From the NCBI RefSeq assembly GCF_017355525.1, contig NZ_CP067395.1:3224001-3288000 (forward strand): a stretch of DNA of 64,000 nucleotides, given 5' to 3'. Origin of the DNA: Lysobacter enzymogenes (GTDB lineage Bacteria > Pseudomonadota > Gammaproteobacteria > Xanthomonadales > Xanthomonadaceae). This document shows positions 33,525 through 55,129 of this stretch, one piece after another (position 1 is the first letter of the stretch; each line of letters begins with the position of its first letter). Below the pieces are notes generated by a model. The model was not told the origin of the DNA. It ran no database searches and saw nothing but the letters and a program-made list of their open reading frames with translations. The position numbers and the translations under genes were made by a program.

Positions 33525-34664
33525 ATGAACGCCGCTTTCGACTTCGCCGCCCTCACGGCGCGGCATCAGCGCCTGCAGCAGTACCTGCAAGCCGATCCCG
33601 ACAACACCGGCCTGCTCGCCGACGCCGCGTCGGCCGCGTTCGAGGCGCGCCATTTCGACGATTGCGACGCGCTGATCGCGCGCTACGCGCAGCACGCGCC
33701 GCTGCCGCCGACGCTGCGCAACCTCGCCGGCCTGTCGGCGATGTCGGCCAGCCGCTTCGATCAGGCCGAGTCGCTGTTCGCCGGCCTGCTGGCCGAATTC
33801 GACGACGCCCACCTGCGCTACAACCACGCCTACTCGGTGGCGATGCAGCAGCGCTACGCGCAGGCGCTCGACGGGCTCGACGAGGCGGTGCTGGAACAGG
33901 CGCCCGAAGCGGTTTCGTTGAAGATGCTGTGCCTGCATCACCTCGGCCAACTCGATGAAGTGGTCGCGCTCGGCGAACGCTACGCCGCGCATCCGCAGGT
34001 CGGCGCGCAGGTCAGCGGCCTGCTCGCGACCGCGCTGTTCGACGCCGACGACTTCGAACGCGCCCAGCATTACGCCGCGCTAGCGCCCGACTCGGTCGGC
34101 GGCCTCACTGTGCAAGGCCTGCTGGCGCTGCACGAGGACGACGTGGCGACCGCGCGCCAGCGGTTCGCGCTGGCGCTGGAAGCCGATCCCGGCAGCGGCC
34201 GCGCCCAGCTCGGCGAAGGCCTGGCCTGTCTGGCCGATCACGATTTCGCCGCGGCCGCGCCGCGCCTGGACCGCGCGGCCACGCTGCTGCGCAGCCACGC
34301 CGGTTCTTGGCTGTCGGCCGGCTGGGCCTATCTGATGGCCGGCCAGCCCGAGCAGGCGCGCGAGCGTTTCGAACGCAGCCTGCAGACCGACCGCGGCTTC
34401 GCCGAAGCCACCGGCGCGCTGGCCGTGGTCGATGCGATGCAAGGCCACGACGAGTCGGCCGGCCACCGCGCTGAAGTGGCGCTGCGCCTGGATCCGAACT
34501 GCCTGTCCGCGACCTACGCCCGCAGCCTGCTGCTGGCGCGTTCCGGGCGCGAGCAGGAAGGCGCCGCGCTGTACCAAGAGCTGTTGCAGCACCCGCTCGG
34601 CCAGGACGGCCCGAGCATCGCCCAGTTGATCGCACGCCGTGCCTCGCACGGCGCGATCGACTGA
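33525..34664 (+). CDS. TPR-repeat protein, first gene of flagellar-like operon
   Basis: A 379-residue soluble protein made of tetratricopeptide-like helical pairs throughout, for example AASAAFEARHFDDCDALIARYA, YNHAYSVAMQQRYAQALDGLDEAVLE and AGWAYLMAGQPEQARERFERSLQ. There is no signal peptide or membrane segment. TPR proteins serve as chaperones of export substrates in type III systems, so a substrate-binding role is plausible here but not shown. It is 28 bases before fliQ and shares the sigma-28-like promoter. A second TPR gene lies near the other end of the operon (53937). Confidence 0.75.
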   Translation: MNAAFDFAALTARHQRLQQYLQADPDNTGLLADAASAAFEARHFDDCDALIARYAQHAPLPPTLRNLAGLSAMSASRFDQAESLFAGLLAEFDDAHLRYNHAYSVAMQQRYAQALDGLDEAVLEQAPEAVSLKMLCLHHLGQLDEVVALGERYAAHPQVGAQVSGLLATALFDADDFERAQHYAALAPDSVGGLTVQGLLALHEDDVATARQRFALALEADPGSGRAQLGEGLACLADHDFAAAAPRLDRAATLLRSHAGSWLSAGWAYLMAGQPEQARERFERSLQTDRGFAEATGALAVVDAMQGHDESAGHRAEVALRLDPNCLSATYARSLLLARSGREQEGAALYQELLQHPLGQDGPSIAQLIARRASHGAID

Positions 34665-34692
34665 GCGACCGACTGCTTCCACAGGGGGACCC

Positions 34693-34959
34693 ATGTCGGC
34701 CGACCAAGCCTTGCAGCTGATGGAACAGCTGTTCTGGAACAGTTTTCTGATCGCCGCGCCGATCCTGATCGCCACGCTGCTGGTCGGCGTGCTGATCAGC
34801 GTCTTGCAGGTGGTGACGCAGTTGCAGGAGATGAGCCTGAGCTACGTGCCCAAGCTGGGCGTGGCGGTGCTGATCGTGGTCGTGCTCGGCGGCTGGATGC
34901 TCGGGCGGCTGACCGGATTCGCCACCGAACTGTTCAAGAGCATCGCCAACCTCGGCTGA
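34693..34959 (+). CDS. fliQ: FliQ, flagellar/type III export gate protein
   Basis: An 88-residue membrane protein, full length for FliQ. It has two hydrophobic helices (FWNSFLIAAPILIATLLVGVLIS and LGVAVLIVVVLGGWML) and the conserved LQVVTQLQEMSLSYVPKL link. FliQ joins FliP and FliR in the inner-membrane export channel. The ATG at 34693 with GGGGG upstream gives the standard N-terminus SADQALQLM. It is unusual that fliQ starts the machine genes while fliO-fliP lie about 17 kb away at the other end. Confidence 0.95.
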   Translation: MSADQALQLMEQLFWNSFLIAAPILIATLLVGVLISVLQVVTQLQEMSLSYVPKLGVAVLIVVVLGGWMLGRLTGFATELFKSIANLG

Positions 34960-34963
34960 CCCG

Positions 34964-35716
34964 ATGAACGCCTACGTCGCCGCGATCGCCCTGCTGACCC
35001 TGCGCATCGGGCCGGTCTTCGTACTCTCGCCTCCGTTCTCGCTGGTGCGCGTGCCGCAGCGCGTGCGCGTGTGCCTGGTGCTGGCGCTGGCGGCGTTGCT
35101 GGCGCCGGTGCTGCCGATGGCGTTGCCGGCGAACGAAGGCGCGTTCGTGCTGTCGGCGCTGTCGGAGCTGTTGATCGGCCTGACCTTCGCGGTGTCCCTG
35201 CAAATGGCGTTCGCCGCGCTGTCGTTCGCCGGGCGCGTGCTCGACGTGCAGGCCGGCTACGGTCTGGCGCTGGTCATCGACCCGTCCACGCGCGCGCAGT
35301 CGCCGCTGTTCGGCACCCTCTTCGCCCTCGCCGCGGCGGCGATCTTCTTCGCCAGCAACGGCCATCTGGAACTGGTCCGGGTGCTGGCCGCCAGCGCCCA
35401 CGCCATGCCGATCGGGCTGCCGGTGATGGCCGGCTCGCCGCAGGCGCTGATCGGTTACCTGAGCCTGCTGATGAGCACCGCGTTCGGCGCGATCGCCGCG
35501 GTCACCGTGGTGCTGTTCCTGATCGACGTCACCATCGCCCTGCTGTCGCGCGCGCTGCCGCAGATGAACGCGCTGATGCTCGGCCTGCAGGTCAAGACCA
35601 TCGCCACCCTGCTGATGCTGACCGTGTCCTCCGGCCTGCTCGCGCCGGTGGCGCTGCGGCTGATCCGCCACGCGCTGGACTTCATGGCCGCGCTAGGCCC
35701 GGGGAGCGCGCCGTGA
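34964..35716 (+). CDS. fliR: FliR, flagellar/type III export gate protein
   Basis: A 250-residue polytopic membrane protein with six or so hydrophobic helices. It shows family features such as LRIGPVFVLSPPFS, ALSELLIGLTFAVSLQMAF, FAGRVLDVQAGYGLALVIDP and LPQMNALMLGLQVKTIATLL. It forms part of the FliPQR core of the export gate. It begins four bases after fliQ and its stop overlaps the flhB GTG start, so translation is coupled. Confidence 0.95.
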   Translation: MNAYVAAIALLTLRIGPVFVLSPPFSLVRVPQRVRVCLVLALAALLAPVLPMALPANEGAFVLSALSELLIGLTFAVSLQMAFAALSFAGRVLDVQAGYGLALVIDPSTRAQSPLFGTLFALAAAAIFFASNGHLELVRVLAASAHAMPIGLPVMAGSPQALIGYLSLLMSTAFGAIAAVTVVLFLIDVTIALLSRALPQMNALMLGLQVKTIATLLMLTVSSGLLAPVALRLIRHALDFMAALGPGSAP

Positions 35717-36777
35717 GCGAGAGCGACCTCAACAAATCCGAGCAAGCCACGCCGTACAAGCTCGAACAGGCGCGCAAGAAGGGCATGGTCGCCAAGAGCC
35801 AGGAGCTCGGCCTGGTGATCTCGCTGGCTTGCGCCGGCGGTTATCTGTACGTGCGCGGCGACGTCCTGTTCGCCCGCCTCGGCGAGCTCAACGCGCGCGC
35901 GCTGGCCGAGGCCGCCGCGCTCGACGGCGGCGGCCGCGCGTTGCTGCACTGGATGCAGCGGCTGATGCTGGAAACCGCGGCGGCGCTGGCGCCGTTGATC
36001 GGCATCGTCGCGCTCGGCGCGCTGCTGTCGAGCGTGGCCCAGACCGGCCTGCTGTTCGCGCCGGCCGCGGTCAAGCCGGACATGTCCAAGCTCAATCCGA
36101 TGCAGGGCCTGAAGCGGGTGTTCTCGCTGCAGACCCTGATCGAAGCGGTCAAGGCCTGCTTCAAGATGCTGGTCTACAGCGGCCTGTGCGGGCTGCTGAT
36201 CTGGCAGGCCGCGCGCGCGCTCGCCCACGCCGGCGGCGACGCCGGCCGCATCGCGGTCGCGCTGTCCGCGCTGGGCCTGAAGCTGCTGCTGTGGTTCCTG
36301 CTCGCGGCGGCGGTGTTCGCCGCGATCGACCAGATCCTGGTGCGGCGCATGTTCGCCCGGCGCATGCGCATGAGCAAGCACGAGGTCAAGCAGGAATACA
36401 AGCAGCGCGAAGGCGACCCGCGGATCAAGCAGCGGCGCAAGCAGTTGCAGCGCGAGCTGCTGCAACGCGCGCAGAGCATGCGCTCGGTGCGCGGCGCCGA
36501 CGTGCTGATCACCAATCCCACCCATTACGCCATCGCGCTGAAGTACGAGCCCGCCAAGATGCTTGCTCCCACCGTCGTCGCCAAAGGTTCCGGCGAGTTC
36601 GCCCTGCGCCTGCGCAAACTGGCCTTCGTCTACGGCGTGCCGGTGATCGAATCGCGCGCGCTGGCGCGGCAGCTGTTCCACAAGACCCCGCTGGAACGCG
36701 AGGTGCCCGACGCGCTGTACCGCGACGTGGCCCAGCTGTACCTGCGCCTGCGCCGCGGCGCGGAGGCCCGCGCATGA
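35713..36777 (+). CDS. flhB: FlhB, export gate substrate-specificity switch
   Basis: A 354-residue protein with the N-terminal signature EQATPYKLEQARKKG, four membrane helices, and a cytosolic domain containing the self-cleavage site ITNPTHYAIAL (NPTH about 268-271). FlhB cleaves itself between Asn and Pro and switches export from hook/rod to later substrates. Retention of NPTH means the switch is still possible even though no filament genes are nearby. It starts at GTG 35713 overlapping fliR and overlaps flhA by four bases. Confidence 0.95.
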   Translation: MSESDLNKSEQATPYKLEQARKKGMVAKSQELGLVISLACAGGYLYVRGDVLFARLGELNARALAEAAALDGGGRALLHWMQRLMLETAAALAPLIGIVALGALLSSVAQTGLLFAPAAVKPDMSKLNPMQGLKRVFSLQTLIEAVKACFKMLVYSGLCGLLIWQAARALAHAGGDAGRIAVALSALGLKLLLWFLLAAAVFAAIDQILVRRMFARRMRMSKHEVKQEYKQREGDPRIKQRRKQLQRELLQRAQSMRSVRGADVLITNPTHYAIALKYEPAKMLAPTVVAKGSGEFALRLRKLAFVYGVPVIESRALARQLFHKTPLEREVPDALYRDVAQLYLRLRRGAEARA

Positions 36778-38891
36778 GCGCGCTCGCTTCGAAAACCTGG
36801 CTCGGCAAGCTCGGCCGCCACGCCGATCTGGCCCTGGTCGGCGCGGTGCTCGGCATCCTGCTGATCCTGTTCATCCCGATCCCGCCGGCGCTGCTGGACC
36901 TGCTGATCCTGGTCAACTTCGCCTTCGCCCTGTCGATCCTGCTGATGACGTTCTACGTCGCCCGGCCGGTCGACTTCTCCACGTTCCCGTCGCTGCTGCT
37001 GATCGCCACGCTGTTCCGGCTCGCGCTGAACATCGCCGCGACCCGCCTGATCATGTCCGGCGCCGACGCCGGCAACGTGATCCATTCGATCGGCGACTTC
37101 GTGGTGCGCGGCAACTACGTCATCGGTTTGATCGTGTTCTTCATCCTGATCGTGGTCCAGTACGTGGTGGTCACCGCCGGCGCCCAGCGCGTGTCGGAAG
37201 TGGCCGCGCGCTTCGTGCTCGACGCCATGCCCGGCCAGCAGATGAGCATCGACGCCGACCTCAACATGGGCCTGATCGACCAGGACGAGGCCAAGCGGCG
37301 GCGCAAGGAACTGGAAAAGGAGGCCGGCTTCTACGGCTCGATGGACGGCGCCAGCAAGTTCGTAAAGGGCGACGCGATCGCCGGCATCGTGATCCTGCTG
37401 ATCAACATCTTCGGCGGCTGGGCGGTCGGCGTGGCGCAGATGGGCATGCAGTGGCACGACGCGCTGCGCACCTTCACCCTGTTGACCATCGGCGACGGCA
37501 TCGTCACCCAGGTGCCGGCGCTGGTCATCTCGGTCGCCACCGGCATCATCGTCACCCGTTCCTCGTCCGACAACGAGCTCAGCGCCGAAGTGGTGCGGCA
37601 GATGGTGCGCTTCCCCAAGATCCAGCTGATGGTGGTGCTGGCGCTGATGGGGCTGTTGCTGCTGCCGGGCATGCCGAAGTGGCCGCTGCCGATCCTGGCC
37701 GCGGTGGCGCTGGCGATCTGGCTGCTGTTGCGCAAGATCCAGCGCGCGGCCAAGAGCGAGCCGGCCGCCGAAACCGAGGACGCGCCGGCCGAAGCCGCCG
37801 CCAACGGCGCGGTGGCGCCGATCGAGATCGCGTTCGGCCCGGCCCTGGCCGCGGCCTGGATGCCGATGCGCAGCGTGCTGACCGACCGCATCGCCTCGTT
37901 CCGCAAGCACTATTCCAAGGACATGGGCGTGACCGTGCCGGCGGTGGCGTTCCGCGAAGAAGCCATGCCGGGCGCCAACGACTACCGCATCTACCTGTTC
38001 GGCGACCGCTTCGCCGACGCCAGCGTGCACGCCGACAAGACCCTGGCGATCCACGCCTCGGACAAGGCCGGCAAGCTCGCCGGCATCGCCACCAAGGATC
38101 CGGCGTTCGGCTTGCCGGCGGTGTGGATCGACAACGAACTCGCCGCGCAGGCGCGCCAGCTCGGCTACACCCCGATCGACCCGGTGACGGTGCTGACCAC
38201 CCACGCGATCGAAGTGGTCAAGGCCAACATCGCGTCCTTGCTGACCCGCGCCGAGACCATGGCGCTGCTGGAAGGCGTGCGCACGCGCCAGCCGGGGCTG
38301 GTCGAGGAACTGGTGCCGAACGTGCTCGCGGTCAGCGACGTGCAGCACGTGCTGCAAGGCCTGCTGGAAGAAAACGTGTCGATCCGCAACATCGACCTGA
38401 TCGTCGAAGTGCTGGCCGACACCGGCCGCCACGAAAAAGACCCGGCGCGACTGGTCGAAGCGATCCGCCGCCGCCTCGGCCACGGCATCTGCCGCGCGCT
38501 GCAGGGCGAGCGCGAATCGCTGTCGGTGCTGACCCTGGACCCGGCGGTCGAGAACCGCATGCTGCAAAGCCTGGCTCAGGCCGGCGACAGCAGCCACGGC
38601 TTCGTGCTCGATCCGCGTCTGGCCGAAAGCTTCCTGGCGCGGCTGCTCAAGCTCAACGAAGCGATGATGCGCAAGAACCTCACGCCCGCCTTGCTGTGCC
38701 GGCCGGAAATCCGCCGCGCGCTGCGCCAGTTCACCCGTCGCGTCGCACCGCGCCTGGCGGTGCTGTCGATGAGCGAAATCCCGCATTCGATCAGCCTGAG
38801 CTCGTTCGGCACCGTCGGCGCCGACCTGCCGCCCGCGCCGGGCGAAACGCCCGCGCCCGCCGCCGCTTCCTTCAAACCCGTCGCCGCCTGA
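36774..38891 (+). CDS. flhA: FlhA, export gate and chaperone-docking protein
   Basis: A 705-residue protein with about eight N-terminal membrane helices and the FHIPEP-region segments FSTFPSLLLIATLFRLALN and MPGQQMSIDADLNMGLID. A C-terminal cytosolic domain (about 350-690) docks substrate-chaperone complexes. Length and motifs are normal for flagellar FlhA. A Pro/Ala-rich tail follows the last domain. It overlaps flhB by four bases and is eight bases before the flgF-like gene. Confidence 0.96.
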   Translation: MSALASKTWLGKLGRHADLALVGAVLGILLILFIPIPPALLDLLILVNFAFALSILLMTFYVARPVDFSTFPSLLLIATLFRLALNIAATRLIMSGADAGNVIHSIGDFVVRGNYVIGLIVFFILIVVQYVVVTAGAQRVSEVAARFVLDAMPGQQMSIDADLNMGLIDQDEAKRRRKELEKEAGFYGSMDGASKFVKGDAIAGIVILLINIFGGWAVGVAQMGMQWHDALRTFTLLTIGDGIVTQVPALVISVATGIIVTRSSSDNELSAEVVRQMVRFPKIQLMVVLALMGLLLLPGMPKWPLPILAAVALAIWLLLRKIQRAAKSEPAAETEDAPAEAAANGAVAPIEIAFGPALAAAWMPMRSVLTDRIASFRKHYSKDMGVTVPAVAFREEAMPGANDYRIYLFGDRFADASVHADKTLAIHASDKAGKLAGIATKDPAFGLPAVWIDNELAAQARQLGYTPIDPVTVLTTHAIEVVKANIASLLTRAETMALLEGVRTRQPGLVEELVPNVLAVSDVQHVLQGLLEENVSIRNIDLIVEVLADTGRHEKDPARLVEAIRRRLGHGICRALQGERESLSVLTLDPAVENRMLQSLAQAGDSSHGFVLDPRLAESFLARLLKLNEAMMRKNLTPALLCRPEIRRALRQFTRRVAPRLAVLSMSEIPHSISLSSFGTVGADLPPAPGETPAPAAASFKPVAA

Positions 38892-38899
38892 GGATCGCC

Positions 38900-39709
38900 A
38901 TGGACAATCTGATGCTGACGGCCACCCAGATGATCGCGCGCGAATCGCAGCGCGTGGAAGTCTCAGCCAATAACATCGCCAACGTCGCCACGCCGGGCTT
39001 CAAGCGCGAACTCGCGTTCCAGAGCGTGCTCGGCGCCGAAGCCGCGCAGCAGTTGCAGCAGCAGACGCTCGACGCCGCCACCGGCGTCGCCCCGGATGCC
39101 GGCCTGCGCGAAGGCGCGACGCAGGCGCCGGCCGCGAGCCGGGCGATGCGCCGCGCGACCGACTTCGCCGCCGGCAAGTTGCAGCACACCGGCAATCCTT
39201 ACGACCTCAGCGTCACTGGGCCCGGCTTCCTGCAACTGGCGACCGCGCGCGGCTACGTCTACGCGCGCACCGCCGCGCTGCACCGCGACGGCGAAGGCCG
39301 CCTGGTCACCGCGCAAGGCTGGCGCCTGCAGGCGGCCGGCGGCGGCGACGTCACCGTGTCCGGCGAGAACTGGAAGCTGGAACGCGACGGCACCGTGCTC
39401 GATGCCGGCAATCCCGCGTCGGCGGTGCGGCTGGTCGAGTTCGAACAGCTCGACCGCCTGACCCGCGCCGGCGGCAACGCCTTCCTCGCGCCCGACGACG
39501 CGCGCATGAGCGAGCGCTTGCCCGGCGCGCAGGGCCCGGCGCTGGCCAGCGCGGTGCAGCAAGGCTACCTGGAAGCGGCCAACGTCTCGGTCGGCGACGA
39601 CATGGTCCAGATCATGGAAGCGATGCGCCGCATCGAATCCGCACAAAAGCTCGTCCATGCCTACGACGACATGGTCGGCAGCGCACTGCAACGCCTCGGA
39701 GGCATGTAA
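38900..39709 (+). CDS. flgF: FlgF-type proximal rod protein
   Basis: A 269-residue rod/hook-family protein. The N-terminal helix motif is SQRVEVSANNIANVATPGFKREL, the core includes DLSVTGPGFLQLATARGYVYART, and the C-terminal helix is GYLEAANVSVGDDMVQIMEAMRRIESAQKL. These are the diagnostic features of axial flagellar proteins. Placement directly before the FlgG-like gene suggests FlgF. It is exported without a signal peptide to form the periplasmic rod. Confidence 0.88.
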   Translation: MDNLMLTATQMIARESQRVEVSANNIANVATPGFKRELAFQSVLGAEAAQQLQQQTLDAATGVAPDAGLREGATQAPAASRAMRRATDFAAGKLQHTGNPYDLSVTGPGFLQLATARGYVYARTAALHRDGEGRLVTAQGWRLQAAGGGDVTVSGENWKLERDGTVLDAGNPASAVRLVEFEQLDRLTRAGGNAFLAPDDARMSERLPGAQGPALASAVQQGYLEAANVSVGDDMVQIMEAMRRIESAQKLVHAYDDMVGSALQRLGGM

Positions 39710-39712: not shown

Positions 39713-40480
39713 ATGAACGGAATTTTCTATATCGGCGCGACCGGGCTGGACGCGCAGGGCAAGGCGGTGGAGACGGTCGCCAACAACGTCGCCAACATCA
39801 ACACCGCCGCGTACAAGCGCGGCACGGTGTCGTTCTCGGAACTGCTCAGCGCCAGCCCGACCGACGCGGCCGCCGGCGACAACGTCGCGCGTTCGGCCGC
39901 CGGCGTCATGGCCAACCCGACCCTGCACGTGTTCGCCCAGGGCGACCTGCGCCCGACCGGCAACGACATGGACCTGGCCGTGCAGGGCGAAGGCTTCCTG
40001 GAACTGGCCGGCGGCGACGGCCGCACCACGCTGTGGCGCGGCGGCACCTTGCGGGTCGGCGCCGACGGCTATCTGACCGCGGCCAACGGCATGCCGCTGG
40101 CGGCGATGATCTCGGTGCCGGCCGATGCCGAGGCGATCCACATCGGCAAGAACGGGCTGGTGACCGCGAACCTGCGCAACGAACGCACGCCGGTGGAGAT
40201 CGGCCAGATCGAGCTGACCGTGCCGGCCGACCTGCAGCGCATGGAATCGCTCGGCGACGGGCTGTACGCGCTGCCGGACGATGCGTTGTCGGCGACCCGC
40301 TCGATGCCGGGCGAGGACAAGGCCGGGCTGCTCGCGCAGGGCTTCAGCGAAGCCTCCAACATCAAGCTCGCCGACGAGATGGTCAGCCTGATGATCTATC
40401 AGCGCGCCTATGCCTCCAGCGCGCGGCTGGTGCAGATCGGCGACGAGCTGATGGGCATCGCCAACGGGCTCAAGCGCTGA
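39713..40480 (+). CDS. flgG: FlgG-type distal rod protein
   Basis: A 255-residue axial protein. It starts IFYIGATGLDAQGKAVETVANNVANINTAAYKR, has DMDLAVQGEGFLELAGGDGRT in the middle, and ends GFSEASNIKLADEMVSLMIYQRAYASS. FlgG forms the distal rod that passes the outer rings. It is slightly shorter than the usual 260 residues. It lies three bases after flgF. Confidence 0.9.
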   Translation: MNGIFYIGATGLDAQGKAVETVANNVANINTAAYKRGTVSFSELLSASPTDAAAGDNVARSAAGVMANPTLHVFAQGDLRPTGNDMDLAVQGEGFLELAGGDGRTTLWRGGTLRVGADGYLTAANGMPLAAMISVPADAEAIHIGKNGLVTANLRNERTPVEIGQIELTVPADLQRMESLGDGLYALPDDALSATRSMPGEDKAGLLAQGFSEASNIKLADEMVSLMIYQRAYASSARLVQIGDELMGIANGLKR

Positions 40481-40482: not shown

Positions 40483-41097
40483 ATGGCCGTCGTCGTGCGC
40501 CCGCCGTTCGCCTTCCGCTTGCTGTCGCCGCGCGCGTGCGCGGCGCTGCTGCTCGCCGTCGCGTGCGCGCCGGCGGCGGCGGGCGTGCGCCTGGATCGCG
40601 CCGCGGAGGCCGACGCCGATGCGCCCGCAGCGACCGAGGCCGCCGACGCGCGGGCCGACGCCGGCGCGCGCGCCTGCATGCGCGTGCTGCGCCCGGTCGC
40701 GCGCGCCCAGGCCTTGCTCGCCGCCGATCTGCGCCGCGAGTCCTGCGGCGACAAGGAACCCGTGCAGCGCGCGCACTACGACCGCGACGCGGGGTTGGTG
40801 CGCGCGCCGGCCGACCTCGCCGCGGGCGACGCGCTCGCCGCGATCGCGCCGAGCCTGCTCGCCGATCTGCGCCAGGGCGACAAGGTCGCGCTCATCTACC
40901 GCGACGGCGCCATCGCAATATCCCGCGACGGCGTCGCCGCGCGCGACAGCAAGCCCGGCGCGCCGGTGCGCGTCGTCCTCGCCGACGGCGCATTCGTAAC
41001 CGCGCCATCGGCGGGCGCCGCGCCCGCTTCGCAGACGCCCGCATCGCTTCAACCTTCTTCACCTCCGTCTTCGTCCCGCTCCGGGGAAACGCCATGA
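40483..41097 (+). CDS. flgA: FlgA-like P-ring assembly chaperone
   Basis: A 204-residue protein with a signal peptide (ACAALLLAVACAPAAAGV) and a C-terminal SAF/FlgA-like region with VARAQALLAADLRRESC, VRAPADLAAGDALAAIAP and LRQGDKVALIYRDGAIAIS. FlgA helps FlgI assemble in the periplasm, matching its place just before flgH-flgI. The sequence is divergent, so the call rests partly on gene order. A Ser/Pro-rich tail follows. Confidence 0.75.
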   Translation: MAVVVRPPFAFRLLSPRACAALLLAVACAPAAAGVRLDRAAEADADAPAATEAADARADAGARACMRVLRPVARAQALLAADLRRESCGDKEPVQRAHYDRDAGLVRAPADLAAGDALAAIAPSLLADLRQGDKVALIYRDGAIAISRDGVAARDSKPGAPVRVVLADGAFVTAPSAGAAPASQTPASLQPSSPPSSSRSGETP

Positions 41098-42888: not shown

Positions 42889-43254
42889 ATGACATCGCCG
42901 GTACTCGAAGCGATCGTAAGCAAGGCCCTGGACGGCCTGCACCTGCGCGAGGTCGCCACTTCGCACAACGTCGCCAACGCCTCCTCGCCCGGTTTCGTGC
43001 CGGTGCGGGTGAGCTTCGAAGGCCAGTTGCAGGAGCTCGCCCAGGCCACGGCCGGGCTCGCGCCGCAACAGCGCGCCGAACAGTTCGCCGCGTTGCAGCC
43101 GCAGGTCGCCGCGTCGGCCGACCCGGCCGAGCGCAGCGTCAAGATCGACCAGGAAATCGCCATCGCCTCGGAGACCTCGGTGCGCTACGCGATGCTGATC
43201 GGCATGCTCAACCGCAGCCTGCAGATCCAGCAGCTGGCGATCCGCGGGAGCTGA
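42889..43254 (+). CDS. flgB: FlgB-like proximal rod protein
   Basis: A 121-residue protein with the rod motif LREVATSHNVANASSPGFVPVRVSFEGQLQEL and a C-terminal helix SVRYAMLIGMLNRSLQIQQLAIRG. Length and position just before flgC fit FlgB, although the sequence is divergent. A clear AGGGGAAG precedes the ATG, after a 35-base gap from flgI, the longest gap inside the first half of the operon apart from that before fliQ. Confidence 0.85.
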   Translation: MTSPVLEAIVSKALDGLHLREVATSHNVANASSPGFVPVRVSFEGQLQELAQATAGLAPQQRAEQFAALQPQVAASADPAERSVKIDQEIAIASETSVRYAMLIGMLNRSLQIQQLAIRGS

Positions 43255-46712: not shown

Positions 46713-46713
46713 C

Positions 46714-48048: not shown

Positions 48049-48494
48049 GCCGCGAGCGCCTGCGCCAGCTCGAAGACATCGCCCAGTTGCAGCGCCTGCG
48101 CCTGGACCGGGCGCAGCTGCGCGCCGCCGGCCTGCGCCGCGATCTGCAAAGCGCGCACTACGCCTGCGAACTGGCCGCGGCCGAGCGCGGCCGCATCGAC
48201 GCGCAATGGCGCGCCGCGCTGGCGCGCAGCGAAGCCCTGGACCTGGCCGCGATCGCCGGCTGGCGCTCGCTGGCCGGCGACGCGCAAGGCCGCTGCGAAC
48301 AGTGCGAGGCCGAACACCAGCGCGCGCAGGACGCGGCGGATGCGTTCGCGCACGAACTGCTGCGCGTGCGCACCCAGTCCGAGCGCGCCGACGAGGACGC
48401 CGCGCGCGAACGCGCCGCAGTGGCGCGCAAGCGCGAGGAAAAGACCGCCGACGCCGTACTCGAACGCCACAACGCCATCGGAGCCGCGCCATGA
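48045..48494 (+). CDS. fliJ: FliJ-like coiled-coil stalk protein
   Basis: A 149-residue all-helical protein of coiled-coil character (LRQLEDIAQLQRLRLDRAQLRAAGLRRDLQ; AFAHELLRVRTQSERADEDAARERAAVARKREEK). Directly following fliI, it fits FliJ/SctO, the central stalk that engages the ATPase ring and FlhA. Identification rests on order, length and helical pattern; the family is poorly conserved. It overlaps both neighbours by four bases. Confidence 0.7.
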   Translation: MSRERLRQLEDIAQLQRLRLDRAQLRAAGLRRDLQSAHYACELAAAERGRIDAQWRAALARSEALDLAAIAGWRSLAGDAQGRCEQCEAEHQRAQDAADAFAHELLRVRTQSERADEDAARERAAVARKREEKTADAVLERHNAIGAAP

Positions 48495-49177
48495 AGATCG
48501 CCGCACCGCCTGCGCCGCCGCTGCCCGCGCCCGCCGCGGGCGCCGCGCCGCGCGGGCAAGAGCGCGGACAGTTCCAGCAGCTGGTGCAGCAGCTGGAGCA
48601 CGACATGTGGTCCGGCGCCGCAGCAGGCGGCGCGCCCGGCGCGGCGTCGCAGCCGCGCGCCGGCGCGGCGCGGCCGCTGGTCGCGCAGCCCGCACCGGCA
48701 GTGGTGCGGCCGCTGGCTCACCTGCGCGATCCCGAACTGCCCGCAGGCGGCGCCGAACCCGCGCCGCGCTACGACCTGCGCGACATCGTCGAAGCCGCCG
48801 CGCTGCCGACGGCGCCCGTATTCGCGACGACGAAGGCCGGCACGAACCCCACGTTCGCCGCGTTCGTCGCGCCGACGCCGACGCCGATGCGAACCAACGC
48901 CGCGAACGCGACCGACAGCGCCGCCGCGCCGACACGCGCCTTCGCCCTCGCCACGCCGCAACGCGAAGAACCCGCCGGCGAGCGCCTGAGCCTGCTGGCC
49001 GCGCCGTCCGGCTTCGGCGTCGCCCTGCGACTGCGCGAAGACCGGCCGCTGGACGCGGACCTGCTCAAGCGCGCCCTGGCGCGGGTGCTGCACGAACACG
49101 GCGCGAGCCTGATGCGCCTGACCATCAACGGAACCGACGCAAGCCTTTTCCAAGGGGAAACACGACATGGCGATTAG
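48491..49177 (+). CDS. FliK-position protein, possible hook-length control
   Basis: A 228-residue protein with a long low-complexity Pro/Ala-rich N-terminal region (PPAPPLPAPAAGAAPRG...) and a compact C-terminal segment (FGVALRLREDRPLDADLLKRALARVLHEHGASLMRLTINGTD). That layout, unstructured ruler plus small globular end, is like FliK/SctP, and it lies between fliJ and flgD where fliK is usual. No direct sequence signature is recognisable, so the symbol is left empty. Confidence 0.55.
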   Translation: MKIAAPPAPPLPAPAAGAAPRGQERGQFQQLVQQLEHDMWSGAAAGGAPGAASQPRAGAARPLVAQPAPAVVRPLAHLRDPELPAGGAEPAPRYDLRDIVEAAALPTAPVFATTKAGTNPTFAAFVAPTPTPMRTNAANATDSAAAPTRAFALATPQREEPAGERLSLLAAPSGFGVALRLREDRPLDADLLKRALARVLHEHGASLMRLTINGTDASLFQGETRHGD

Positions 49178-49580
49178 TCCCATCAGCGGCGGCGGCAACG
49201 CCGGCACGTCGCAACGCATCGAGTCGCTGGGCCTGGACATGCAGTCGCTGCTGCAGATCATCCTGACCCAGCTGACCTACCAGGATCCGCTCAAGCCGGT
49301 CGACAACTTCGAGTTCGTCTCGCAGCTGGCCCAGTTCACCTCGCTGGAACAAAGCCGTCAGCTCACCGACAAGATGGATCAGCTGCTGGGCGTGCAGTCG
49401 GCCACCCAGACCCTGGGCCTGCTCGGCCGCAGCGTCGACGTGCAGCAGGGCGAAGGCCTGATCTCCGGCGTGGTCAAGAACGTCTCGTTCAAGAACGGCG
49501 CGCCGGAGCTGACCATCACCACCGTCGGCGGCGAGTTCCTCGCCAACGCCTCCCTGTCCCAGATCGTGCAAGTGCGCTGA
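49167..49580 (+). CDS. flgD: FlgD-like hook-cap protein, short form
   Basis: A 137-residue protein with the FlgD N-terminal signature LLQIILTQLTYQDPLKPVDNFEFVSQLAQFTSLEQ. Standard FlgD is about 220-230 residues and has Tudor-like and Ig-like domains. Here only about 70 residues follow the signature (LLGRSVDVQQGEGLISGVVKNVSF...LTITTVGGEFL), so most of the cap portion is missing. It overlaps the preceding gene by 11 bases and is 11 bases before flgE. A hook may still be formed, but the cap is reduced. Confidence 0.88.
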   Translation: MAISPISGGGNAGTSQRIESLGLDMQSLLQIILTQLTYQDPLKPVDNFEFVSQLAQFTSLEQSRQLTDKMDQLLGVQSATQTLGLLGRSVDVQQGEGLISGVVKNVSFKNGAPELTITTVGGEFLANASLSQIVQVR

Positions 49581-49591: not shown

Positions 49592-50839
49592 ATGCTGGAC
49601 AGCATCTACATCGGCATGAGCGGCCTGACCGCCCATTCCAAGGGTCTGCAGACCATCAGCAACAACGTCGCCAACCTCAACACCCCGGGCTTCAAGACCA
49701 CCACGCCGCGGTTTTCCGACCTGTACTACGGCCAGCAGTTCTTCGGCCAGGGCCCGGATTCGGCGCGCGTGGCGACCGCCGGCAGCGGCGTGGAATACGA
49801 CTACGCGGCGCTGAACTTCAAGCAGGGCGAGATCCGCCGCAGCGACGGTCAGCTCGACCTGGCGATCGAAGGCCCGGGCTTCCTGGCGCTGCTGGAAGAC
49901 GGCAAGGTGCGTTACGCGCGCACCGGCCAGTTCATCATCGACGACGACGGCAAGGTGCGCGAGAAGGGCAGCAAGCTGCAACTGACCACGCTCGGCCCCG
50001 ACGGCACCCTGCAGCCGATCACCATCGACAAGCTGCGCTCCAGCGCGCCCAAGCCGACCTCGTCGGTCAAGATCGACGGCTCGCTGCTGTCGATGGGCAG
50101 CGCCGGCAGCGGCGGCACCAATCCGCCGACCACGGCGGAGACGTTCTCGATTCCCAACGTCGAGCTCTACGACGGCTCCGGCGCCAAGATCGTCGCCACC
50201 ATCAAGCTGACCCGCGACACCGTTTCGCCGCCGATCGGCACCAACGGCGCGCGCTGGCAGGTCGTCTTGCTGGACAAGGACTCCAAGACGCTCGGCCAGG
50301 GCGAGATCCGCATGATCGGCAGAACCCCCGAGCCGGGCGCCGACCGCATCACGGTCACCCTGACCTCGGCCAACGGCGTCGCCAGCAGGCTCGATCTGGA
50401 TTTCTCCAGCATCCAGTACCTCAGCGGCAACACCAACAACTCCGGCCTCAAGGTCTCCAAGATCGACGGCTACGGCGCGGGCACGATGTCGGCGCTGCGC
50501 GTGGACGACAAGGGCGCGCTGGTCGTGGACTACTCGAACGGCCAGAAGGAAGAACTCGGCACGGTGGCGATGGCCGACTTCGCCGACCCGCAGCGGCTGG
50601 TGCAGCTCGGCGACGGTGTGTTCGACGCCTCGCAGCTGCCGCCGCCGATCTTCGTCGGCAGCAAGCAAGGCGCCGGCACCTTGTCGTCGGGCGTGATCGA
50701 GGCCTCCAACGTCGACCTGTCGACCGAGTTCGGCCGCCTGATCCTGATCCAGCGCGGCTTCCAGGCGTCTTCGCAAGTCATCAGCACCGCCAACGAAATG
50801 ATCATGCAGCTGTTCCAGATGAAGAGCGGCCAAGGATGA
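49592..50839 (+). CDS. flgE: FlgE, hook protein
   Basis: A 415-residue axial protein with N-terminal IGMSGLTAHSKGLQTISNNVANLNTPGFKTT, the middle QLDLAIEGPGFLALLEDGKVRYARTGQF and the C-terminal GVIEASNVDLSTEFGRLILIQRGFQASSQVI. These are complete hook-protein termini around a variable centre. It shows that the apparatus still encodes an extracellular hook-type structure. An AAGGAG site precedes the ATG. Confidence 0.93.
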   Translation: MLDSIYIGMSGLTAHSKGLQTISNNVANLNTPGFKTTTPRFSDLYYGQQFFGQGPDSARVATAGSGVEYDYAALNFKQGEIRRSDGQLDLAIEGPGFLALLEDGKVRYARTGQFIIDDDGKVREKGSKLQLTTLGPDGTLQPITIDKLRSSAPKPTSSVKIDGSLLSMGSAGSGGTNPPTTAETFSIPNVELYDGSGAKIVATIKLTRDTVSPPIGTNGARWQVVLLDKDSKTLGQGEIRMIGRTPEPGADRITVTLTSANGVASRLDLDFSSIQYLSGNTNNSGLKVSKIDGYGAGTMSALRVDDKGALVVDYSNGQKEELGTVAMADFADPQRLVQLGDGVFDASQLPPPIFVGSKQGAGTLSSGVIEASNVDLSTEFGRLILIQRGFQASSQVISTANEMIMQLFQMKSGQG

Positions 50840-51663
50840 GCGCCGCGACTGCAACGTCTGCACGCGAAAGCGCCGCGGCGCCGCGCTGGCGGCCGCTCGG
50901 ACAAGCCGATGCCGACTGGCTGCGCGAACGCGCAGCCGCGGCGTTGCGTGCGTGGCAGGACGACTGGCTCGACGCCGGCGCGTTCGAAGTGCTCGACGCG
51001 CAGGCCTTCGCTTCGGGCCAGCCGGCCTCCGCCGGCGGCGCCTGCTGGCGCGCCGGCGCGCAGCTGACGGCGCGCACCGAGCCCGGCGCGTGGAAGCGCC
51101 ACGCGCTGGCGGCGATGGCCTTGTCGGCGCAGGCCGAGGCGGTGCCCGACGAGTTGCTCGAACCGGTGCAGGAGCAACTGCTCGACGCGCTGCTCTCGCG
51201 CCTCGCCGCCGCGTTGCTGGACGGCGCCGCGGACAGTCTCGCCGCATTCGAACGCGCGGCGCCGGGAACCGACAGCGGTTTCGCCGCCGGCGGCGTGCGC
51301 CTGCGCATCGGCACCGCGCGCGATCCGCAACTGCTCGACCTGGATTGCGCGGCCGAACTGGCGTGGCGGCGGCCGCTCGCCGCCGCGCCGGCGGCGAAGC
51401 GGGCCGAGCCCGCCGCGCGCGCCGCCGCGCTCGGCGACAACACCGTGCAGCTCTCGGCCGTGCTCGGCAGCTGCGAACTCACCGCGCTGCAACTCAGCGA
51501 ACTGGCGGTCGGCGACGTGCTGACCACCGCGCAGCTGTTGCACGAACCGATCCAGCTGCGCCTGCACGCCGACGGCGCCGCGCCGCGCACCATCGCCCAC
51601 GGCCGGCCGGGACGCGCGCAACAGCGGCTCTCGATCCAGCTCACCACCCTTCAGCAGAAGTGA
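50836..51663 (+). CDS. FliM-like C-ring protein lacking the CheY-binding region
   Basis: A 275-residue protein in the usual place of fliM. The C-terminal 70 residues match a SpoA/FliMN domain (VQLSAVLGSCELTALQLSELAVGDVLTTAQLL...RLSIQL). The N-terminus lacks the FliM switch motif (usually LSQDEIDALL) that binds CheY-P, and I see no middle-domain GGxG motif. The first two hundred residues are Ala-rich and unrecognised, more like SctQ of injectisomes. Its ATG overlaps the flgE stop. Function as part of a sorting platform or C ring is likely; control by chemotaxis is not. Confidence 0.72.
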   Translation: MSAATATSARESAAAPRWRPLGQADADWLRERAAAALRAWQDDWLDAGAFEVLDAQAFASGQPASAGGACWRAGAQLTARTEPGAWKRHALAAMALSAQAEAVPDELLEPVQEQLLDALLSRLAAALLDGAADSLAAFERAAPGTDSGFAAGGVRLRIGTARDPQLLDLDCAAELAWRRPLAAAPAAKRAEPAARAAALGDNTVQLSAVLGSCELTALQLSELAVGDVLTTAQLLHEPIQLRLHADGAAPRTIAHGRPGRAQQRLSIQLTTLQQK

Positions 51664-51668
51664 ACCCC

Positions 51669-52004
51669 ATGAATACCCCGCTCGGCGTCAGCAAGATCGA
51701 CATCATGCAGATCGACCTTCCCGAACACGCGGCCGCCGCGCCGGTCGCCGGCGACAAGCCGGGCCAGCGCATTCCGCTGGACATGCTCGGCGAGATCGCG
51801 GTCAAGGTCGAAATCCAGCTCGGCACGGCCCGGCTCACGGTCAAGGAACTGATGGCCTTGCAGGCCGGTTCGATGCTGACCCTGGACCAGCACCTGTCGC
51901 AGGACGTGGACGTGCTGCTCAACGAACGCGTGGTCGCGCGCGGCGAAGTGGTCGCGGTCGGCGATCACTTCGGCGTGCGGATCAAGCAGCTCGGCGCCGC
52001 CTGA
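51669..52004 (+). CDS. fliN: FliN-type C-ring protein
   Basis: A 111-residue protein. Its C-terminal SpoA domain is complete: LDMLGEIAVKVEIQLGTARLTVKELMALQAGSMLTLDQHLSQDVDVLLNERVVARGEVVAVGDHFGVRI. It pairs with FliM to form the lower C ring and holds FliH. It starts five bases after the preceding gene. Confidence 0.92.
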   Translation: MNTPLGVSKIDIMQIDLPEHAAAAPVAGDKPGQRIPLDMLGEIAVKVEIQLGTARLTVKELMALQAGSMLTLDQHLSQDVDVLLNERVVARGEVVAVGDHFGVRIKQLGAA

Positions 52005-52044
52005 GCGCCCCGTCCGCCGCGGCGGACGGACCGGAAACGACGAC

Positions 52045-52392
52045 ATGTCCATGCAAATCGATTACCTGCGCGTCGCGCTGTCGCTGGCCTTGTGCCTGGG
52101 ACTCGGCGTGGCCGCGATCTTCCTGCTGCGCTCGCGCTTCCGCGGGCTCAGCGTCGGCCCCGCGCGCGATCTGGCGTTGCTGGAAAGCCTGCGCGTGGAC
52201 CCGCGCACGGCCGTGCACGTGCTCGCCTACGGCAACGAACGGCTGCTGCTGACCACGCGCGACAACGCCGTGCACGTGACCGTGCTGCCGGCGGGCGCCG
52301 CGCCGCGCGCGCCTGAGCCGGCGGCCGTCCCGCAAGACGCGGGTGCAGCGCCCGCCACACACGACGCCCGCGACGGAGCGCCCGCGCCATGA
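52045..52392 (+). CDS. fliO: FliO-like export gate assembly protein
   Basis: A 115-residue protein with one N-terminal membrane helix (YLRVALSLALCLGLGVAAIFLL) and a short cytosolic part with LALLESLRVDPRTAVHVLAYGNERLLLTTRD, the FliO pattern. A Pro/Ala-rich tail follows. FliO assists FliP assembly, and the next gene is fliP, whose start overlaps the stop here. Confidence 0.82.
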   Translation: MSMQIDYLRVALSLALCLGLGVAAIFLLRSRFRGLSVGPARDLALLESLRVDPRTAVHVLAYGNERLLLTTRDNAVHVTVLPAGAAPRAPEPAAVPQDAGAAPATHDARDGAPAP

Positions 52393-53174
52393 CCGATTTC
52401 TTCGTCCGCCACCGCCGCCTGCTGTTGCTGGCGCTGCTGCTCGGCGTGTTCGCCGCCGCCTCGGCGATGGCTGCAGCGCCGCCGCAGGCGCCGAGCGTAC
52501 CCGACCCGTTCGCCCAACAAGGCGCCGTGCTCGGCGCGCTCAAGGGCGGCACCAGCGAGAGCGTGCGCATCGCCACCGTGCTGACGATCCTCAGCATCGT
52601 GCCGGCGCTGGTGATCTCGATGACCGCGTTCATCCGCATCATCATCGTGCTGTCGATGATCCGCCACGCCTTCGGCATGCCCGAGACGCCGCCGACGCCG
52701 GTGCTGATCAGCCTCGGCCTGTTGCTGACCGTGTTCACCATGTTGCCGACGCTGGAGAAGGTCAACACGCAGGCCTATCAGCCTTTCATGAGCGGGCAGA
52801 TGACCCTCGACGTGGCGCTGGAGAAAGGCAGCGCGCCGGTCAAGGACTTCATGCTGCGGCAGGTGCGCGAGGACGAGCTCAAGCTGATGTACGAAATCTC
52901 CGGCAAGCCGCTGCCGGACGAACCCGCGCAGGTCGGCCTGTTGCAGCTGACCTCGGCCTTCATCCTCAACGAGCTGCGCGTGGCCTTCCAGATCGGCTTC
53001 GTGATCCTGCTGCCGTTCCTGTTGATCGACCTGGTGGTGTCGAGCGTGCTGCTGTCGCTGGGCATGCTGATGGTTCCGCCGGCGACGATCTCGCTGCCGC
53101 TGAAGGTGCTGATGTTCGTACTGGTCGACGGCTGGAGCCTGATCCTGCAAGGCGTGGTGCTCAGCTTCAAATGA
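52389..53174 (+). CDS. fliP: FliP, export gate protein
   Basis: A 261-residue protein with a cleavable signal (LLLLALLLGVFAAASAMA) and the family motifs LSIVPALVISMTAFIRIIIVLSMIRHAFG, TLEKVNTQAYQPFMSGQMT, AFILNELRVAFQIGFVILLPFLLIDLVVSS and SLPLKVLMFVLVDGW. It is the pentameric core of the channel. In most flagellar operons fliQ follows directly; here a sigma factor gene does. Confidence 0.96.
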   Translation: MTDFFVRHRRLLLLALLLGVFAAASAMAAAPPQAPSVPDPFAQQGAVLGALKGGTSESVRIATVLTILSIVPALVISMTAFIRIIIVLSMIRHAFGMPETPPTPVLISLGLLLTVFTMLPTLEKVNTQAYQPFMSGQMTLDVALEKGSAPVKDFMLRQVREDELKLMYEISGKPLPDEPAQVGLLQLTSAFILNELRVAFQIGFVILLPFLLIDLVVSSVLLSLGMLMVPPATISLPLKVLMFVLVDGWSLILQGVVLSFK

Positions 53175-53923
53175 CCTGGCCGACCGCCCTCGCCCTCCAC
53201 GACGACGACCCCGCCGCGCCCGCCGCGGAAGCGTCGCTGTGGGCGGCGTTGCGGCGCGACGGCTCGACCGCGGCGCGCGAAGCGCTGTTCCTGCGTTATC
53301 TGCCGTACGCGCAAGCGCTGGCCGCGCGCATCTACGGCGGCCGCCACAGCCGCGAGGTGGAACTGCGCGACTATCAGCAACTGGCCTGCATCGGCCTGCT
53401 CGATGCGCTGGACCGCTACGACCCGCAGCATGGCGCGAGCTTCAAGACCTTCTGCACGCCGCGCATCACCGGCAGCGTGCTCGACGGCCTGCGCGCGCTG
53501 AGCGAGGCGCAGGAGCAGATCACGCTCAAGCGCCGCCTGCAGCGCGACCGCTTGAGTTCGCTCAAGGACGGCGGTGCCCGCGACGGCAAGCCGGCCGCGC
53601 GCAAGCTCGAAGCGCTGTCGGAACTGGCGGTCGGGCTAGCCATCGGCCATATGCTCGAAGGCACCGGCATGTACGCCGACGAGCTCAGCGCCAATCATCA
53701 CGACGGTTATGCTGCGGTCGCGTGGCAACAGACCTGCCGCAGCCTGCGCCAGGCGGTGGACCGACTGCCGACCGATATGGCCAAGGTCATCGGTTACCAC
53801 TATTTCCATTCGCTGCCGTTCGAACAGATCGCCGGCATCCTCGGCCTGAGCAAGGGCCGCATCTCGCAGATCCATCGCGCCGGGCTGCGCCTGCTGCGCG
53901 AGAAGATCCAACCCCATTCCTGA
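53171..53923 (+). CDS. fliA: FliA-type sigma-28 factor
   Basis: A 250-residue sigma factor. Region 2 is clear (YLPYAQALAARIYGG, DYQQLACIGLLDALDRYDPQHGASFKTFCTPRITGSVLDGLRAL), as is region 4 (VIGYHYFHSLPFEQIAGILGLSKGRISQIHRAGLRLLREK). The usual D-W-x-PRS motif just after region 2 of FliA is missing, replaced by SEAQEQITLKRRLQ, so promoter or anti-sigma recognition may differ. It lies directly behind fliP (four-base overlap) and should recognise the sigma-28-like promoter at 33423 (inference), giving positive feedback. No anti-sigma factor FlgM is seen in the window. Confidence 0.88.
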   Translation: MTWPTALALHDDDPAAPAAEASLWAALRRDGSTAAREALFLRYLPYAQALAARIYGGRHSREVELRDYQQLACIGLLDALDRYDPQHGASFKTFCTPRITGSVLDGLRALSEAQEQITLKRRLQRDRLSSLKDGGARDGKPAARKLEALSELAVGLAIGHMLEGTGMYADELSANHHDGYAAVAWQQTCRSLRQAVDRLPTDMAKVIGYHYFHSLPFEQIAGILGLSKGRISQIHRAGLRLLREKIQPHS

Positions 53924-53936
53924 TCCGGACCACGAC

Positions 53937-54566
53937 ATGAGAGACGACCGCTACCCCATCGCCTGCGACGACGACCGCATCGACGCGATCAAGGCCGCGA
54001 TGAACCGCTCCGACGACGAAGCGCTGGCCCTGCTCGACGCCGCCGTCGCCGAATTTCCGGCCGATGCGCGTCTGGCCCTGCTGCGCGGCTCGGTCTACGC
54101 CAGTCTCAACGCCTATCCGCAGGCCTTCGCCGACCTGAGCCAAGCCGTGGTGATGGCGCCGGAACTGCACGCGGCGCGCTTCATGCTCGGCTACCTCGAG
54201 CTGTGCCACCGCGGCGCGGCGCAGGCGATCGCGGTGTGGCATCCGCTGACCCGGCTCGGCGAGAACGAAGCGCTCGGCGATTTCGCCCGCGGCCTGACCG
54301 CGCTGGTGACCGGCGAACCGGAGCAGGCGCGCGCCTACCTGCAGCGCGGGTTGGAGGCCAATCGCGATCATCCCGAGCTGTCGCCGTTCGTGCAGTCGCT
54401 GATCGAGAAGTCGCACGAGATCGTCGCCGATGCCGCGCTGTCGCCGGTGCCCGGATTCGCCGCGCCGCCGGTGGCCGATGCGGCGGCGGACGAGCAGGAC
54501 GACGACAACGCCGGCACGGGCAGTCATCTGCTGCTCGGCGGCTACCTCGACCGTCGCGATCACTGA
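53937..54566 (+). CDS. TPR-repeat protein, possible export chaperone
   Basis: A 209-residue soluble protein with at least three TPR-like helical pairs (DEALALLDAAVAEFPADARLALLRGSVYA; AYPQAFADLSQAVVMAPELHAARFMLGYLELC; PEQARAYLQRGLEANRDHPELSP) and an acidic C-terminus. Class II type III chaperones have three TPRs, so a chaperone role for an unseen secreted substrate is a reasonable idea, not shown. It is 13 bases after fliA and overlaps the transglycosylase gene by one base. Confidence 0.7.
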   Translation: MRDDRYPIACDDDRIDAIKAAMNRSDDEALALLDAAVAEFPADARLALLRGSVYASLNAYPQAFADLSQAVVMAPELHAARFMLGYLELCHRGAAQAIAVWHPLTRLGENEALGDFARGLTALVTGEPEQARAYLQRGLEANRDHPELSPFVQSLIEKSHEIVADAALSPVPGFAAPPVADAAADEQDDDNAGTGSHLLLGGYLDRRDH

Positions 54567-55129
54567 TGCGTCCGCACCGTCTCCTGTCGTCGCCGCGCAC
54601 CGCGGCGTTGCTGCTGGCTTCGGCGTTTTCGCTGGCGGCCGCGCCGGCCGCGGCCGACTGCATCGACGACGCCGCACGCTACCAGGGCGTGCATCCGCAC
54701 GTGCTGCGCGCGATCGCGTTCCACGAATCGCGGATGAAGCCCGAGACTGTCAACCACAACAAGAACAGCACCCGCGATATCGGGCTGATGGGCATCAACA
54801 CCGTGCATGGCGGCGAGTTGTCGCGTTACGGCATCGGCCAGGACCGGTTGTTCGATCCTTGCGTCAACGCGTATGTCGGCGCGTGGCTGTTGCGGCGCAA
54901 GGTCGACAAGTACGGCGCCACCTGGAAAGCGGTGGCGGCGTATCACTCGGAGACGCCGGAGATCGGTGAGGCGTATATGCGCCGGATTCAGGACGTGATG
55001 CGGCGTTGGGGGTTGTTGCCGGCGTTGGCGGCGGCGAAGCCGGCGATAGCGAACGCCGCGTCGAGCGCAGCCGCGGGCGTGGCGCAGAACGGTGGCGGCG
55101 AGCTCGACGCGTTGGCGACGATTCGCTGA
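54566..55129 (+). CDS. IagB/IpgF-like lytic transglycosylase
   Basis: A 187-residue protein with a signal peptide (TAALLLASAFSLAAAPAAA). Its SLT (lysozyme-like) domain has catalytic Glu in AIAFHESRMKP, DIGLMGIN, CVNAYVGAWLLRRKVDKYG and AVAAYHSE. The form is that of IagB/IpgF enzymes, which open murein for injectisomes and type IV systems. It stands in for FlgJ, which in flagella caps the rod and cuts murein. It closes the operon. Confidence 0.88.
   Translation: MRPHRLLSSPRTAALLLASAFSLAAAPAAADCIDDAARYQGVHPHVLRAIAFHESRMKPETVNHNKNSTRDIGLMGINTVHGGELSRYGIGQDRLFDPCVNAYVGAWLLRRKVDKYGATWKAVAAYHSETPEIGEAYMRRIQDVMRRWGLLPALAAAKPAIANAASSAAAGVAQNGGGELDALATIR

Follow-up and report, generated by a model that had tools for sequence, protein, structure and literature searches.

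Gene content of the locus

We analyzed a 64,000-nucleotide (nt) stretch of DNA (G000:C1:3224001-3288000; hereafter the window) from a single-contig 5.95-Mb genome (G000). It carries an operon of flagellar-type export, rod, ring and hook genes, which we call the machine, and the 3' part of a giant Rhs/YD-repeat gene. Twenty-eight tandem coding sequences, all on the plus strand, fill positions 33525-55129, with junctions that range from a 25-nt overlap to a 40-nt gap and with frequent 4-nt overlaps. A preliminary description made from the sequence alone had reported a 21.6-kb single-strand run of such genes with overlapping start and stop codons, and both points were borne out by Pfam matches and gene positions.

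A sigma-28-type promoter-like site (CTAAAG-N16-CGAAAAG; 33422-33450, plus strand) lies ahead of the first gene, which encodes TPR1, a tetratricopeptide repeat (TPR) protein and possible cargo chaperone (33525-34664; Pfam TPR). The export gate follows, with FliQ (34693-34959; Pfam 2.4e-21), FliR (34964-35716; 1.1e-46), FlhB, which is also the specificity switch (35713-36777; 2.5e-103), and FlhA (36774-38891; 1.8e-231). Next come the rod proteins FlgF (38900-39709) and FlgG (39713-40480), both Pfam-backed, the P-ring chaperone FlgA (40483-41097; 0.00058, under the cut-off), the L-ring protein FlgH (41094-41693; 1.3e-47) and the P-ring protein FlgI (41699-42853; 5.4e-106). The rod protein FlgB (42889-43254) had no flagellar Pfam match and was assigned by position and by FlgB homologs in related loci. 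This half ends with the rod protein FlgC (43260-43721; Flg_bbr_C 5.2e-08), FliE (43718-44032; 1.3e-21) and the MS-ring protein FliF (44034-45470; 3.2e-55).

The second half begins with a short protein of 177 amino acids (aa) in the FliG position (45457-45990) and FliH (45966-46712), for which Pfam matches were weak and the NCBIfam FliH_bacil match (1.6e-07) was under its cut-off. The FliI ATPase (46714-48048; 6.5e-80) precedes a FliJ-position protein (48045-48494) and a FliK-position protein, possibly a hook-length ruler (48491-49177); the Pfam scan gave no flagellar match for these two, which were assigned by position. They are followed by the 137-aa hook cap protein FlgD (49167-49580; 3.5e-15), the Pfam-backed hook protein FlgE (49592-50839), a FliM-like protein (50836-51663; 9.9e-09), FliN (51669-52004; 1.2e-20), FliO (52045-52392; 0.002, under the cut-off) and the gate protein FliP (52389-53174; 4.8e-68). 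The operon closes with a FliA-type sigma factor (53171-53923; Pfam sigma-70 regions 2 and 4), a second TPR protein, TPR2 (53937-54566; Pfam TPR), and an SLT-domain transglycosylase (54566-55129; 2.1e-18) that among the compared loci occurs only in the window and in L001.

FlhA, FlhB, FliP, FliQ, FliR and FliI, together with rod, rings and hook, make up a flagellar-type export apparatus with a hook-basal body. The FlhB NPTH motif and the FliI Walker A motif (GSGVGKTT) can be read in the translations, intact as previously described.

Giant Rhs/YD-repeat proteins with a shared N-terminal module

The giant gene lies on the minus strand, convergent with the operon. It ends at position 58562, runs to the window's edge at 64000 and starts outside it, at G000:C1:3297507. 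Its 4,981-aa product begins MVAIVTGNGLGL and is an RHS/YD-repeat protein with 25 RHS-repeat stretches (PF05593, 4.8e-199) and one LysM domain, in which Pfam recognised no toxin family. The first 200 residues are 95% identical to a named L. enzymogenes protein. A 93-aa open reading frame (ORF) overlaps its stop by 4 nt (58284-58565, minus strand); it had no Pfam match and is a candidate immunity gene.

Two further giants are encoded in the same genome, about 1 Mb off on either side. The giants at G000:C1:3297034-3297507 and 4259387-4259860 do not differ over their first 500 residues and hardly differ in the DNA upstream, but their C-termini are different, which suggests a recent duplication with C-terminal exchange.

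An N-terminal module (MVAIVxGxGLG...) is common to the giants. Twelve measured giants span 4,412-4,981 aa, and their identity to the window's giant was 39-100% over the first 500 aa compared to 16-26% over the last 300 aa. A search with the first 200 aa returned 667 proteins; among the 120 listed, we observed C-terminal PF14424, PF14414, PF14412, PF14410 and PF14436, which we take to be toxin families. These data suggest that the giants are polymorphic-toxin-like proteins with variable C-termini.

Giants or parts of giants also adjoin the machine on B. ubonensis and Variovorax plasmids, in Burkholderia SRS-W-2-2016 (G006), at L004 and L005, and in G003 and G007, where the N-module was matched in the giants. 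Their orientation is convergent in the window, divergent and adjoining TPR1 in G006 and L081, and directly behind the sigma factor gene in G758. Undibacterium YM2 was considered as an exception, since the machine's neighbor there, a 12,948-aa tandem-95 protein, first looked different. This exception falls because the protein has the same N-module and the same upstream site: it starts MVAIVNGQGLG..., shows 40% identity with the N-module of the Variovorax giant across 151 residues, and matched the N-module profile with an E-value of 1.9e-39 (for that one protein).

The giants and the machine co-occur

We built one profile from the first 160 aa of four giants (A2; G000, G006 and two plasmids) and one from ten FlgD proteins of the machine type, termed compact (A1; including G000, G003, G004, G006 and G007). 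Both were run on the same 398 Burkholderiaceae genomes and 398 genomes of the window's order, 796 in all, with E < 1e-25 defining a strong N-module. In Burkholderiaceae, 14/398 genomes had a strong N-module and 16/398 a compact FlgD, with both in 14 (P = 5e-24, Fisher test). In the window's order, the N-module and FlgD were each found in 22/398 genomes, with both in 21 (P = 1e-32; P = 1e-12 at genus level); these tests treat genomes and genera as independent. The one giant-only genome (G727), where FlgD was not found, carries a compact FlhA. A marker of the machine was therefore present in 36/36 strong-N-module genomes.

Three genomes had the machine marker only (G004, G238 and G794). No compact FlhA was seen in G004 and G238, with two lower-scoring FHIPEP matches of G004 not placed in the tree, and in G794 a 37-residue N-module match stops at a contig end. 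Giant and FlgD shared a contig in 31/36 genomes, 4.6-52 kb apart (median 17.7 kb) and in several orientations, and lay on different contigs in 4/36; genus labels and distances for these and the genus-level statistics were entered by hand. Within the window's genus, three sampled genomes had both giant and machine and three had neither. The N-module was present in 6 of 72,556 plasmid records, three of which also carried compact FlhA and FlgD.

Weaker N-module matches (E-values 8.5e-4 to 1.6e-8), most covering part of the model only, were set aside in 2/16 Burkholderiaceae and 18/40 order genomes. FlgD matches of 69-78 bits in 17/39 order genomes were likewise set aside; they were read as ordinary FlgD without individual checks, and the split was set once a gap extending to 88.7 bits had become apparent.

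Promoter-like sites are shared by operon and giants

Upstream of the giants we observed a common layout of CTAAAC, 15 nt and a CGGATAAC- or CCGAGAAG-like box. The pattern CTAAAS-N16-CGANAAG had four matches in the whole of G000, namely the three giants and the operon start, whereas the reversed pattern had none. It had no match in three genomes of the same genus that lack the machine, one in G002, and none in G001, in which no search for giants was made. When up to three mismatches were allowed in a stricter pattern, it matched at the three giants of G000 only. Because the pattern was derived from these sites, what the search adds is their exclusivity.

CTAAAC was present within 130 nt of 17/20 giant starts (two regions partly masked) compared to 0/20 windows farther upstream. 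It was also present within 160 nt upstream of 5/5 further plasmid giants, with GGA at the same spacing. By eye, the regions upstream of flagellin in three relatives have a similar layout (CTAAAG/CTCAAG...GCCG). Sites that are promoter-like by sequence and of the sigma-28 type hence precede the operon and the giants, as in a sigma-28 (FliA) regulon, and the operon's own sigma factor may be their user. The giant gene on the minus strand (58562 to beyond 64000) and the site at 33422-33450 both fall outside the span given in the preliminary description. The giants and shared sites, overlooked there, are the best clue to function.

The machine forms a lineage of its own

We scanned for FliI, and the best 80 of 209 relatives' loci were listed. 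Eight close FliI proteins, at 66-91% identity, stood out among these matches, the next being at 46%. Their hosts are two Lysobacter, Dyella, Trinickia, two Paraburkholderia and two Burkholderia; FliI of Lysobacter sp. yr284 is 91% identical to that of the window. This value, together with the 95% match of the giant's N-terminal 200 residues to an L. enzymogenes protein, suggests that the host is a Lysobacter close to L. enzymogenes.

The preliminary description had proposed a comparison of gene order across genomes. Profiles were used to tabulate 20 loci, and 16 of them share a set of 19 core genes (fliQ, fliR, flhB, flhA, flgF, flgG, flgH, flgI, flgB, flgC, fliE, fliF, fliI, flgD, flgE, fliN, fliO, fliP and fliA) in the same order, tolerating neighbor swaps in the printout where open frames overlap. 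TPR1 had a hidden Markov model match in 12 of these 16 full loci, at variable position, and flgA and the fliG-, fliH-, fliJ-, fliK- and fliM-like genes were too divergent for detection in all. Among the incomplete loci, L007 is truncated because the fetched sequence ends within it, and partial operon copies without the first part occur at L004, L005 and G238 (C39). At L004 and L005, a giant-gene fragment abuts the missing side, as if a deletion had joined both. The FlgI annotation on the L083 plasmid is split in two.

The same order is seen again in Burkholderiales, in Dyella and on plasmids, the gene set being present on three plasmids, one of them typed conjugative. Host genomes often have a true flagellum too. 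Flagellin_N was matched in five of eight genomes searched (the non-Lysobacter ones), and each of these five had a second, higher-scoring, flagellar-type FlhA on the flagellin's contig, away from the machine. In G650, whose FlhA contig coordinates equal those of G005 (Dyella acidisoli), we also noted a true flagellar FlhA together with a complete machine belonging to one branch (C11) and an incomplete operon of the window's type (C10).

In an FlhA tree of 49 rows, 27 compact rows split off by a branch with 100/100 support from 16 flagellar, 4 SctV and 2 unassigned rows. A FliI tree of 57 rows that included other phyla likewise separated 21 compact rows (99/96). Both trees are unrooted and have some long branches, and secondary flagella are sampled in part. 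As judged from these trees, the machine is a lineage separate from true flagella. G690 and G710, which belong to the window's genus, lie in another compact FlhA branch, and the Lysobacter rows and G794 nest among eight Burkholderiales rows. This placement suggests that the machine moved horizontally between lineages.

Motility parts are missing and the C ring is reduced

Genome-wide searches of G000 returned no match for Flagellin_N and none for MotB_plug. The FHIPEP family had two matches, the FlhA of the operon and one protein grouping with SctV; with these three families we found no further flagellar locus. The absence of filament, stator and chemotaxis genes, claimed in the preliminary description, accordingly extends to the genome for flagellin and MotB, and no such family was matched among the 28 operon genes; for FliD, FlgK, FliS, FlgM, FlgN, FlhF/G and Che it was the locus that was searched and not the genome. 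Secretin and needle families also had no match among the 28 genes and were not sought elsewhere as partners. The second FHIPEP protein (G000:C1:3719290-3721215, minus strand) groups with SctV in the FlhA tree, so an injectisome-type system may be present in this genome as well.

In 19 loci, the product of the gene directly behind fliF is 148-212 aa long. The FliG middle or torque domain was not matched by Pfam in any of six FliG-position proteins scanned, the best match being a sub-cut-off FliG_N (0.0021) in one. All six FliM-like proteins scanned matched SpoA, and none matched the FliM middle domain; two SpoA stretches and a weak match to SepQ were seen in the B. ubonensis protein, and the protein of the window, with its SpoA domain only, matched SctQ (2.5e-05) and FliM (4.6e-05) about equally weakly, both far under the cut-off. 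A homolog search for FliG-like proteins, in which 8,000 candidates were scored, yielded nine proteins, too few for a marker. Protein lengths and domain scans suggest a reduced C ring.

Injectisomes have a reduced cytosolic ring, which the short FliG-position and SpoA-only FliM-like proteins recall. Unlike an injectisome, the machine keeps rod, hook and P and L rings, and its FlhA lies outside the SctV clade.

Two other genes of the window are a GntR-type regulator with an aminotransferase domain (56671-58185, plus strand), between operon and giant, and a protein with a Glyco_hydro_109 C-terminal domain (22443-23798, minus strand; Pfam 9e-87).

Discussion

Our data suggest that the genes of this locus build a non-rotating, dedicated secretion machine on the flagellar plan, with the giants as its cargo, a reading to which we give a probability of roughly 80%. 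Our analysis supports the proposal, made in the preliminary description, of a compact device for secretion that has rod, rings and hook and lacks filament and stator. The basis is gene content, a separate lineage, the reduced C ring, co-occurrence, shared promoter-like sites and polymorphic C-termini. From these we infer use of the sites by the sigma factor, export, an export signal, chaperones and a target; the giant next door is the likely cargo. With somewhat less confidence, we consider it probable that the machine represents a third type III secretion system (T3SS) class beside the flagellum and the injectisome. It would be a hook-basal body that has lost torque and filament, has its own sigma factor, is dedicated to the export of giant toxins bearing the N-module through the hook, and has spread horizontally between Xanthomonadales and Burkholderiales, on plasmids as well.

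In the proposed mechanism, an export gate and ATPase, the MS ring, a reduced C-ring adaptor, rod, P and L rings and hook would form the machine, and the giants (4,412-4,981 aa; 12,948 aa in one relative) would replace flagellin as late cargo. Rod and hook would be exported and assembled first. The FliK-position protein and FlhB would then change export specificity, and the operon's FliA-type sigma factor would transcribe the giants from CTAAAC-N15-nGGA-type sites. TPR1 and TPR2 may act as chaperones. Finally, the giant would leave the cell by way of the hook and would probably serve as a weapon against neighbors.

Several observations weigh against this reading. The profiles were built partly from the sampled genomes, and the machine was confirmed by the FlhA tree in 20/36 giant genomes and by FlgD alone in 16/36. 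An N-module occurs without the machine on the same replicon in Undibacterium KW1 and two Eleftheria terrae records, whose other replicons were unsearched. A distinct ORF of 87-212 aa follows 12/12 giants, starting -4 to +5 nt from the stop region, a count made in GC-rich DNA without a chance control. A flagellin-like giant N-terminus, spotted by eye, was dropped when 14 giants compared to 4 flagellins scored no better than shuffles and other-protein controls. In addition, the published phenotypes of strain OH11 (L. enzymogenes) concern twitching, and its flagellar T3SS (FT3SS)-like genes are said to form no operon (PMC7277350). That statement speaks against identity of the OH11 system with the window locus, unless it is due to how the genes were picked.

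The giants might instead leave by a type VI secretion system (T6SS), by Sec or by a further system, merely traveling with a machine that exports something else. Rhs proteins are often T6SS cargo according to literature abstracts, and TssB was matched in 28/36 giant genomes. It was undetected in the other eight (the single-contig genomes G000, G498 and G741, and G523, G791, G448, G796 and G222), and T6SS therefore cannot be the general route for the giants. The sigma-28-type site common to the operon and to giants even ~1 Mb away also argues against such a route, as does the lack of any Pfam match to a T6SS spike or PAAR family in the window's giant (Sec and other routes were not searched). We regard this explanation as unlikely.

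Slightly less likely still is that the machine is the remnant of an ancestral flagellum that lost filament and motor genes and took on a new role in the control of twitching by type IV pili, a proposal made for OH11. Twitching of OH11 stops upon deletion of flhA, flhB, fliI or fliR, though not of fliP or fliQ (PMC7277350), and the missing flagellin and stator matches in G000 would fit. We rejected this view, and with it the earlier suggestion of flagellar genes retained after flagellum loss, because the machine has its own FlhA and FliI clades, coexists with flagellin and a second flagellar-type FlhA in five relatives, and keeps its gene order across orders and plasmids. Its near-complete tie to the giants is a further argument. 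A second motile flagellum with filament and motor genes elsewhere, as rod, rings, hook and a FliA-type sigma factor and the two flagellar clusters reported for some Burkholderia (PMC9601139) might suggest, is highly improbable given the lack of Flagellin_N and MotB_plug matches in G000 and of FliG torque and FliM middle domains in the six proteins of each kind scanned.

The secretion machine that we favor resembles several known systems. OH11 exports a test flagellin in an flhB- and fliI-dependent manner, and the authors raise the possibility of native substrates yet unidentified (PMC7277350). L. enzymogenes is also reported to secrete FlgD and antifungal toxins and to have lost genes including fliE and fliG (PMC9927559). 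Proteins named L. enzymogenes FliE are 88% identical to FliE of the window (43718-44032, plus strand), and the reported fliE loss may therefore not be general. Like the machine, the OH11 FT3SS consists of flagellum-type export genes in a non-flagellated Lysobacter (PMC7277350, PMC9927559), and it is likely the same system. It differs in being described as retained, non-operon flagellar genes with fliE and fliG lost, and the accessible text names no giant Rhs/YD cargo.

Non-flagellar T3SS operons with FliO in Xanthomonadales, Burkholderiales and others, such as Luteimonas with or without a flagellum, may include the machine (PMC12248157); they are described there as FliO context, with gene set and cargo not given in the part available. 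The flag-2 system of Enterobacterales is a second flagellar locus with a proposed secretion role and, in one locus, an Rhs gene with an immunity gene inside. It differs in that flagellin glycosylation genes and a possible role in locomotion are part of the discussion there and in that cargo varies, with no fixed link to one N-module in the accessible description (PMC6993521).

The giants resemble Rhs/YD polymorphic toxins in their RHS repeats, variable C-termini and small downstream ORFs. They differ by their own N-module and in being linked with a flagellum-type machine and not with T6SS, Sec or Tc routes. In the literature covered, mostly titles and abstract openings with subscription papers largely outside, we recognised no report joining giant Rhs/YD proteins to a flagellum-type exporter.

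If our reading is true, a toxin exporter with rod, rings and hook joins the known forms of T3SS, giant Rhs proteins gain a route independent of T6SS, and the N-module becomes a means by which cargo can be found. With the flhB and fliI deletions reported for OH11, the reading is directly testable. It would also offer a possible answer to a question already in print (PMC7277350): why a functional flagellar exporter persists in non-flagellated Lysobacter, and which native cargo that exporter serves.

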